DNA of 64,000 nucleotides from Ianthella basta (taxonomy: Eukaryota > Porifera > Demospongiae > Verongiida > Ianthellidae), in NCBI GenBank assembly GCA_964019415.1, contig OZ025885.1, positions 5,103,444 through 5,167,443 of the forward strand. The letters run 5' to 3'. Positions 4,401-8,787 of the stretch are shown here, piece by piece; the stretch's first letter is position 1; each line of letters starts with the position of its first letter. The notes below the pieces were generated by a model. That model searched no databases. It worked only from the letters and a program-made list of their open reading frames with translations, and had not been told where the DNA came from. Both the position numbers and the translations under genes were made by a program.

Positions 4401-7400
4401 AGGCCACCGTCGTCTCGCCCTGATGATGTTGAAGATAAAATGGTAGCGATCCAACGATTCAAGGAATGTGGGTCTAGATTGGCAGGGGAGAAAGCATCAC
4501 ACATAAAACCCGTCGACCTACTCAAGAAGGGAAGCGAGCGCATTCATGTAATTTATGGTCAGGCTGGGTCTGGGAAGACCACTCTACTAAAACACATGTG
4601 CAAAGCACTTTCCACTGAAGCGGGTGAAAGTGATTATAATCTCGTGCTCTACTTCCCGCTGCGAGACAGGTCTGTATCTGGTGCAAGTGACCTCCAGAGC
4701 CTTCTGAAGTACTATGGGAGCGAGGACAGTCGTCTGAACCACACCACACTTGTACAGTCAATGGTGGAGAGCAAAGGCAGGGGCCTCCTCTTTGTGCTGG
4801 ATGGTGCAGATGAGGTGAAGGACCTGCTGCAACAGTCCTCTGGATCCACTGTTCAGAGCCTTCTCACGGGACCTGTTCTCCCTGAAGCCCATATCATCAT
4901 CTCTTCACGTCCTGGTGCCTGTCCCTCCTTACAGGACCACACTGCCACTTTTTATGAAGTGCAGGGCTTTGATCGTGATGCCATCACTTTATACGTGAAG
5001 AGCTTCTTTAAGGCCAACCCTCATGCTGCTGACAGGATGCTGTCACAGCTGGCCAGCCGCCCTGACCTGCTTGGTGGGATGTATATCCCAATGAACTGTT
5101 TCATCCTTTGCTCAATCTTTGAGCATGATTCCTCTTTCCCTGCCACAATGACTGCCTGCTACCAGGCCTTTGCAGCCCACACCATTTCACGCGAGTGCAG
5201 TAGAGAGGGAAGAGAAGTGCACATTGACCCCACTCTGAGGGACCTCCCAAGAGATGTTGATGATCTCATGTCGTCGTTGGGCAGGCTTTCTTATAATGGT
5301 CTTTGTGAAAATCCACCTCGTATTGTTTTTGATGAGTCTTCCATTCGTGCAGCCTTCCCTAAGCTCCCCCCAGGTGCCCCCATTGATGAGTCTCTCTTCA
5401 AGGGTCTTCTGCATGTTCATGCCAGTCGGACGGGCTACCAGTCCTCTCTGTCCTTCTCCTTTCCCCATGCCACGCAGCAAGAGTTCTTTGCTGCCCTCCA
5501 TGTGAGTCGTCTGCCACCTAAGGAGCAAGCGAGGTTTTGGAAGAAGAATCTCTCTAACATCTCCTTCTCTGTTGTTCTTCGATTCTATGCTGGCCTCACT
5601 GGCCTCAGTGTATCTGAAGTGGCCAAGCAGCTCTACAGCACAGCAGCACCTGAAGAAGCACCTAGTCTGCTGGCATCCTTCCTAAGTTTAGTGAAGCAGG
5701 AAGACATCCGGCTGGTTGATGAGTGTAGCCATGACGACCCTCGCCTTCTCTTCCTCTTCCATGCTTTGTACGAGTCGCAGAATGCCAACTTAACTAAACG
5801 AGTCATGCAAAATATTCCATATTCACTAAAATTCGTCCTCTCTCTCTCAGCATTTGACACAATGTCAATTGCGTACTGCCTCAGTCAATGCTCCCACCTG
5901 AGGCAACTTCATATGCACCCACACTTATGCACCCTTTCATCCGCTCAGTGCCTGTCACATTTAAAGGCAGTGCTCCAGGCCAACCCACAGTGTCAGCTTG
6001 GAGGTAGACTACGCCTCTCTTGTGATGCCTTCTCAGCTGATGGTGAGTCTGTGCAGTACTGTATGTGTGTAATGCTGTACACATTGTGATTGCTGACTAC
6101 TGTAATGTGTGGTGTAGTGTGTTTGTAGTAAGTGTTCATTTGTACTGATGTCTCTTACAATGTGAATACAGTAGATGTCTGTCAATAGTCAAATATGACC
6201 TATGTCTATTTCATATAATTGTTGAATAATGTGATGATTTAATGATGTTATGAATTGTAATAATTTTATTTTTGTTCTGCCTACAACTCTCAACCATCAG
6301 ATGCCCAGACGCTGTCTCAAGTAGCAGTGTCACTGAGGGCGTTAGACCTGCGTGTATCCCACACAGACTGTGTGACACTCTCCACTGTTTGCAGCCTCCC
6401 TGGAGTGAGGGGGTTGTATGTCACTGTCCGTAGTGATGTGAAGGCAAGTACATGATTGTTTTGTACAGCAATGGCATTCTGCCTACACACACAGTACACA
6501 CTAGTGTACTAAACCAATTATCGAATAATATTTGTACCTTGTACTTTGTAACGCGGCTGCTGAAGGTCACAAAAGCTAAAGGCAAAAGATAGCTGAACAA
6601 CCTGTCTTCTCACGCAGCCATTTTGAAGCTATAACTAAAACCTTAACTTAATAGTTCAAATCGTGATAGAGTTCAATATTGTGAATATTACACTAGCAAC
6701 AATCGTGATAGTAAAAGGCACTATCAACCAGCACAGCACTACACACACATGCACATATCAGTGTCTACTTCACTGCCCACACTCTCAATAGCTTGTACAC
6801 ATTTCCCAAGTTCTTCCTACTACCACTACATTATTACTGTTATCAAAGTGTCTGGAGTATACCAGTAATGTTGTGCAATAATTGCTGTCTTCAAAGTGTA
6901 CTTTGTTTATGGTTATGATTAGTGTTGACCTTTGGGTATGTGTTATTATACAACAATTGCCCATACTCTAAACGCATTGTACTATTATTATTGAACATCA
7001 TATTCTGTCAACGGTCCATCATTATTGCATGAGCATCCCTACCTCACCATCAAAGGGAATGTGTAATGGTGTCACAGTCCACTCTGGTCACACACATGTA
7101 TATGCATACACATATGCTCACACACGTCACACACATCCATTCACACATGTGTACATACCTCACCACCCACACTCTGCAGTACTGATGTTTTGTTGATTCT
7201 TGTTCCCTTCTTCCAGGATGACAGTGGATGGCAGCAAGTGGAGGCTAGTCTAACAGAAAACAAGCATTTGAACGAACTGTGGCTTAATGGATGTGATGCT
7301 TTCATTGTCAACATGCTGAGGGCACTCGCCATGGGCAGGAACACCTCCATACAGCACCTAGGGCTTTACAGTGAGTCATTGTACTACACGGCCCTTCTCA

Positions 7401-8787: not shown

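Follow-up and report, generated by a model that had tools for sequence, protein, structure and literature searches.

Residue variation on the inner leucine-rich-repeat strands of a NACHT receptor family in the sponge Ianthella basta points to diversifying selection

Two NACHT receptor genes and their surroundings

Two genes for receptors with a NACHT domain and predicted leucine-rich repeats (LRRs), here called NLR-A and NLR-B, lie in a stretch of 64,000 nt from the sponge Ianthella basta (assembly GCA_964019415.1, contig OZ025885.1, 5,103,444-5,167,443, forward strand), which is referred to below as the window and in whose own numbering their positions are given. They are part of a NACHT-LRR receptor family with at least about 22 members in the genome of a single animal, in which the framework of the LRR is nearly constant, whereas each of the x positions of the xLxLx strands (27 x codons per gene in exons 5-8) is occupied by 4-12 different residues. 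With considerable confidence, we attribute this pattern to diversifying selection on the x residues of the inner strands, acting together with conversion or recombination between the copies.

NLR-A starts with a very short exon 1 (MALSK, 1418-1432, +), placed by inspection from an ATG followed by a GTGAGT donor. Its exon 3 (2045-2388, +, splice sites by eye) encodes a DEATH-like domain whose match to Pfam Death (E 0.054) is under the cut-off, while the DEATH domain of NLR-B exon 3 (40835-41115, +, ends by eye) scores above it (7.3e-8); in both genes the join of the DEATH exon to exon 4 was drawn by eye only. Exon 4 encodes the NACHT domain that places both genes among the NLRs: in NLR-A (4266-6042, +; Pfam NACHT 5.5e-26) it also holds helical domains and the first two LRR strands, and in NLR-B it spans 42351-44109 (+; 4.3e-29). 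A profile of the two proteins matched NLRP3 (2.5e-15), NLRP1 and others in the PDB.

The remaining LRR strands of NLR-A are encoded by exons 5-8, for which the initial annotation had correctly placed the start at 6301 and the end of the stop codon at 8787. Exon 5 (6301-6443, +, two LRR strands, GC-AG donor) contains hypervariable strands at 6339-6353 (x = codons 14, 16 and 18) and 6411-6425 (x = codons 38, 40 and 42), both on the plus strand, as are all the following. In exon 6 (7217-7370, two LRR strands) these are ELWLN (7274-7288) and HLGLY (7355-7369), in exon 7 (7736-7911, two LRR strands) RLMIC (7807-7821) and YLTVW (7876-7890), and in exon 8 (8545-8787, three LRR strands and the stop codon) TVYLE (8608-8622), RIELW (8701-8715) and the C-terminal YLNVN (8770-8784). 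The three strands of an AlphaFold (AF2) model of exon 8 coincide with the x triplets. The corresponding exons of NLR-B lie at 44366-44508, 45846-45999, 46363-46535 and 47459-47701, the last including the stop codon. Pfam LRR models gave no match among the five family members scanned, and a PDB sequence search with the LRR region returned no LRR chain. The intron 5 donor (6444-6449 and its equivalents) is GC (GCAAG) in 20 of the 21 copies in which exon 5 was read, NLR-A and NLR-B included, and GT in copy O.

Over exons 5-8 the two proteins differ at 43 of 236 residues (dN 0.116, dS 0.068), practically the figure of about 43 in about 235 given beforehand; the codon alignment, which carries a proxy for the codon interrupted by intron 6, gives 42 of 237. 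This proxy, made of the final base of the intron and the two opening bases of exon 7, stands as codon 1 of exon 7 in every copy; for the codon split between exons 4 and 5 the last intron base was used, which equals the exon base in both genes, and alignment columns missing from NLR-A were omitted. All six strand pairs quoted as examples of divergence are present in the sequences, the final S of QHLGLYS/QFLYLAS being a read-through into the intron (the split codon encodes R in NLR-A and S in NLR-B), and the quoted helices between the strands are indeed identical. For exons 5 and 6, where about 15 replacements against about 4 silent changes had been counted, we found 16 replaced residues, corresponding to 21.5 replacement and 5.5 silent changes by the Nei-Gojobori method. 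The proposed clustering of differences on the x positions is borne out, with 23 of 27 x residues differing against 19 of 210 elsewhere (Fisher p = 1e-16). Between the two genes, dN is 0.85 and dS 0.03 at the x codons (0.5 silent change in 17 sites), as compared with 0.053 and 0.079 at the other codons; replacements at x exceed both silent changes (one-sided Fisher p = 6e-4) and intron changes (p = 6e-30), and framework replacements show no excess over silent changes.

The introns had been described as almost identical, which holds for intron 4 (10 differences in 256 bases), intron 6 (6/363), the aligned part of intron 7 (16/624) and the 3' flank (14/549), but not for intron 5, in which several hundred bases do not match, nor for the length of intron 7, about 290 bases longer in NLR-B. 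In NLR-B the latter intron carries an insertion at about 46982-47161, adjoining a TG repeat and recognized by eye, that has near-perfect terminal inverted repeats (TACAGTGGAACC ... GGTTTCACTGTA) and resembles a miniature inverted-repeat transposable element. The NACHT exon, constrained overall (dN/dS 0.33), is a mosaic (4266-6042 versus 42351-44109): in 60-codon bins, silent divergence rises from 0.07-0.31 within codons 1-300 to 0.9-2.5 within codons 301-494, and the two genes differ by 4.6% in the 1 kb upstream of this exon. NLR-A and NLR-B are therefore partly exchanged genes, and a comparison of the whole genes would be misleading.

Elsewhere in the window, inspection of the reading frames reveals what we take to be a Tc1/mariner-like transposase (15884-16981, -), an RNase H and tyrosine-recombinase pair, presumably DIRS/Ngaro-like (17186-18876, +), and, again presumably, a reverse transcriptase in pieces of the long interspersed nuclear element type (48330-50003, +). 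Very long arrays of a 10-bp unit, strand-skewed in both GC and AT, occupy about 12.7-14, 20-29 and 53-62 kb, and a repeat search of the window listed nothing besides these arrays.

Variation and selection across the family

Family members were sought by a six-frame search with the LRR of NLR-A in the assembly holding the window (209 Mb, 96 contigs), and, because 150 of the 288 candidates were scored, the family counts are lower bounds. Most of the close matches fall within 3.2-5.2 Mb of contig C18. Exons 5-8 could be put together for 22 copies, designated by letters (A and B being NLR-A and NLR-B), of which 21 are on C18 and one on C23; among them, P is represented without its exon 5, exon 8 of U is truncated and V has a deletion in exon 7. 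Left out before counting were the broken copies on C22, distant copies at C18:3.83-3.87 Mb and a distant gene at C18:4.370-4.372 Mb, a second exon 8 (C18:4379926-4380165), a partial one (C18:5048154), weaker or single-exon matches, and an isolated exon 8 (C18:4489818-4490057) with a TAG stop at x codon 26.

Mean entropy over the 22 copies is 2.46 bits at the x positions and 0.57 at the others, a value for x that was matched in none of 20,000 within-exon permutations and that peaks at register 0 among 27 shifts, so that the strand register and the exon 8 model alike show a non-random placement of the changes. The 40 most variable positions comprise 26 of the 27 x sites and 14 others; these others include codon 13 of exon 5, codons 2 and 53 of exon 7 and codons 49, 52 and 58 of exon 8. 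The x residues are enriched in Tyr (12.3% versus 0.2%) and Trp (6.7% versus 1.6%). A second NLR subfamily (C19 4.32-4.60 Mb and C17 0.9-3.4 Mb) behaves differently in exon 8, where 20 loci have 0-2.2 bits at the strand x positions, against 1.9-3.4 bits in the main family; therefore, saturation of the x positions of all strands is not general for this type of LRR in the genome. Most of the variation in its exon 8 falls in a loop that follows strand 1, where strand 2 ends and at the two exon ends, possibly marking a different recognition surface, and it includes three copy pairs that are 99.7-100% identical, with the same exon 8 protein within each pair.

Selection was estimated with a codon model of the 22 copies, using one tree per exon inferred either from all sites or from the framework. 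dN/dS at x reached 5.9 (all-site trees) or 8.7 (framework trees), the framework having 0.71, and the positive selection suggested for two genes by the initial annotation was thus recovered in the whole family. Site by site, dN/dS exceeded 1 at p<0.01 at 25 or 26 of the 27 x positions and at 8 or 5 of the 211 others, codon 42 of exon 5 being an x site that was not positive under either tree set; the 20 or 21 sites under negative selection all lie outside x. With values above 1 concentrated on the strand x positions of the LRR, the receptors have this mark of a diversifying NLR family.

Exchange between copies and the weighing of explanations

The exons of these genes do not share one genealogy. 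In 19 genes (P, U and V omitted), the trees of the four exons rejected each other in 12 of 12 approximately unbiased (AU) tests on all sites, in a run flagged for its small number of replicates; with framework codons, from which six variable non-x codons had also been removed, they did so in 10 of 12 (10,000 replicates; the two non-rejected cases are trees of other exons on exon 6); the Shimodaira-Hasegawa test on framework codons rejected 8 of 12. Conflict of this kind is the mark of exchange between paralogues, and conversion or recombination therefore also acts. Some copies, such as C-K and F-J in exon 5, have stretches of 43-111 nt in common, x triplets included, although some of these identical blocks could reflect common ancestry instead of exchange. 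Whole-strand cassette conversion as a general rule is rejected: 26 pairs share an identical x triplet against 20.9 after shuffling, and x residues within a strand, even two codons apart, are on average almost unlinked (mean r 0.017). The exception among the nine strands is the first of exon 7, with seven shared-triplet pairs against 2.3, a number reached in 16 of 1000 shuffles.

Divergence at x also does not track that of intron 6. This intron was comparable in 16 of the 22 genes, giving 120 pairs (Q, F, I, N, S and V are without a comparable intron), and many-gene alignments of intron 7 and the 3' flanks, which had non-homologous stretches, were not used. The mean difference at positions 1 and 2 of the x codons in exons 6 and 7 is 0.50-0.60 in all classes of intron 6 divergence (rho -0.07), so within the sampled range, at or above 0.8%, copies are about equally different at x whatever the divergence of this intron; between copies A and C, 3 of 365 of its bases are changed, against 11 of 24 such codon positions. 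Silent divergence in exons 6 and 7 is itself higher than that of intron 6, about fivefold in genes A, B and C (0.077 versus 0.015) and about 1.5-fold in a 14-gene set (0.132 versus 0.091), and between NLR-A and NLR-B 12 of 170 silent exon sites are changed against 46 of 1792 intron sites (p = 0.003). Spill-over from multi-nucleotide mutations is ruled out as the cause of this silent divergence, which is roughly flat with distance from the x codons. The decoupling would follow if conversion had a stronger homogenising effect on introns than on exons subject to diversifying selection. The exchange between copies, the mosaic NACHT exon and the decoupling had all escaped the initial annotation.

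The reading that we favour draws on what the computations established: the location of the changes, dN/dS well above 1 at x, no significant silent excess, accelerated third-base replacements and conflicting exon trees. Strong diversifying selection would act on the x positions of the inner strands, and conversion or recombination would keep introns and framework alike while reshuffling exons; the inner face may be a ligand surface, binding varied microbial or non-self ligands, with the DEATH-NACHT part presumably signalling upon binding and each gene carrying a different fixed specificity. Free drift of the x positions under relaxed constraint has a negligible probability beside this. In its favour, the framework dN/dS of 0.71 is not low, but drift could raise the ratio to 1 at most, whereas forcing x to neutrality gives a 2dlnL of 422, that is 211 log units worse (all-site trees), and x replacements per site between NLR-A and NLR-B run at about 20 times the intron rate; the codon model, the site-by-site test and this intron comparison all reject it.

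A targeted mutator, either hypermutation or a process like that of diversity-generating retroelements, is a more serious competitor, albeit a very improbable one. It would account for x positions 1 and 2 being about half different even at an intron 6 difference of 0.8%, for third bases conserved at many x sites (codon 50 of exon 7 has T in 22 of 22 copies, with seven residues) and for an excess of position 1 and 2 changes in genes A-D over the fitted selection model. Counted silent divergence (pS) at x is likewise somewhat raised in the larger gene sets, being 0.069 against framework bins of 0.05-0.08 in A-D, 0.125 against 0.064-0.092 in eight genes and 0.238 against 0.139-0.178 in all 22, a rise that may stem from path averaging in multiply changed codons and from somewhat deeper x lineages. 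Yet the codon model shows no significant rise in silent rate from framework to x (ratio 1.3, 2dlnL 1.3). Third-base replacements in x codons outpace the silent changes in those codons (2dlnL 13.5 and 23.4), which a process blind to the frame or limited to positions 1 and 2 would not produce. Together, these two results make selection on the amino acid the main driver and rule out base-targeted hypermutation as the main cause. An adenine-directed process does not fit because all four bases, A, C, G and T, occur at the conserved third positions (no search for a template repeat was made), and the near-identical pairs of the second subfamily, with their unchanged proteins, also speak against a mutator, though that subfamily is less variable at x. 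Equally improbable is an ancient x diversity maintained by balancing selection, combined with a recent homogenisation of introns and framework through conversion. The excess of exon over intron silent divergence, the independence of x from intron divergence and the silent divergence at x, 1.3-1.7 times that of the framework bins in the 22 genes, agree with such old alleles. In genes A-D, however, third bases at x are silently no more divergent than the framework, which means that the x lineages cannot be many times as old as the surrounding exons; old alleles can supplement but cannot replace selection on each codon.

Even so, the fitted rate of selection does not quite account for the differences between the closest copies. 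Simulations of A-D under the fitted model gave differences of 0.40-0.42 at x positions 1 and 2 against an observed 0.522, above all 200 simulations with both tree sets, and third-base differences of 0.19 and 0.17 (sd 0.05) against 0.086; the whole family fits better (observed 0.546; simulated 0.520 or 0.584). An extra process beyond the fitted selection has a low probability, and we advance as a rather doubtful idea that the binding face stays permanently saturated, independently of neutral divergence, and is possibly fed by an additional germline process, a candidate for which would be conversion between copies over very short tracts with selection as the filter.

Relation to known recognition systems

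The AqNLRs of Amphimedon, described by Yuen in 2014, are said to be an expanded set of NLRs with DEATH or CARD, NACHT and LRR domains. Polymorphism of the AqNLRs is attributed to Degnan 2015 in PMC6899969. The NLRs of the sponge Dysidea avara (PMC12909245) are likewise expanded and combine DEATH or CARD with NACHT and LRR; the paper on them states that highly divergent LRRs were possibly missed, and "positive selection" has 0 occurrences in its main text. In our family the LRR has no Pfam match, and a Pfam-based census would therefore score NACHT genes lacking LRR. A literature search at the level of titles and abstracts found no prior case of site-level diversification of LRR strands in an invertebrate NLR family.

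In lamprey variable lymphocyte receptors, which are assembled somatically from cassettes, the variable residues sit on the inner strands of an LRR scaffold. The sponge receptors would share this layout, but their x residues are on average unlinked within strands, and their diversity resides in separate genes.

Diversifying selection combined with exchange on a recognition module is already known from plant and zebrafish NLRs. In plant hypervariable NLRs (PMC8226289) and in RPP8 (PMC6771003), NLRs that carry an LRR, the residues predicted to determine specificity are grouped on the surface of the LRR, and in the RPP8 family exchange between paralogues is joined by balancing selection (PMC6771003); there, alleles within a species are compared, whereas here the variation is among paralogues of one genome in an animal NACHT receptor, with 25 or 26 of the 27 tested x positions positive. 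The zebrafish NLR-B30.2 genes (PMC4852459) form a large animal NACHT-LRR family with gene conversion and positive selection on the recognition module, which is B30.2, while in the sponge it is the LRR, the reading frame ending at the last strand. What is new is an animal NLR in which an LRR that Pfam does not match has diversified at almost all of the inner-face positions tested, a pattern expected of a gene-encoded repertoire of differing recognition specificities. Likely recognition residues of an invertebrate NLR repertoire can thereby be named, 27 codons per gene plus up to six in exon 4, and immune specificity is therefore directly testable in an animal that has no antibodies. With the inner face of the LRR as the selected module, this animal receptor would have a solution resembling that of plants.
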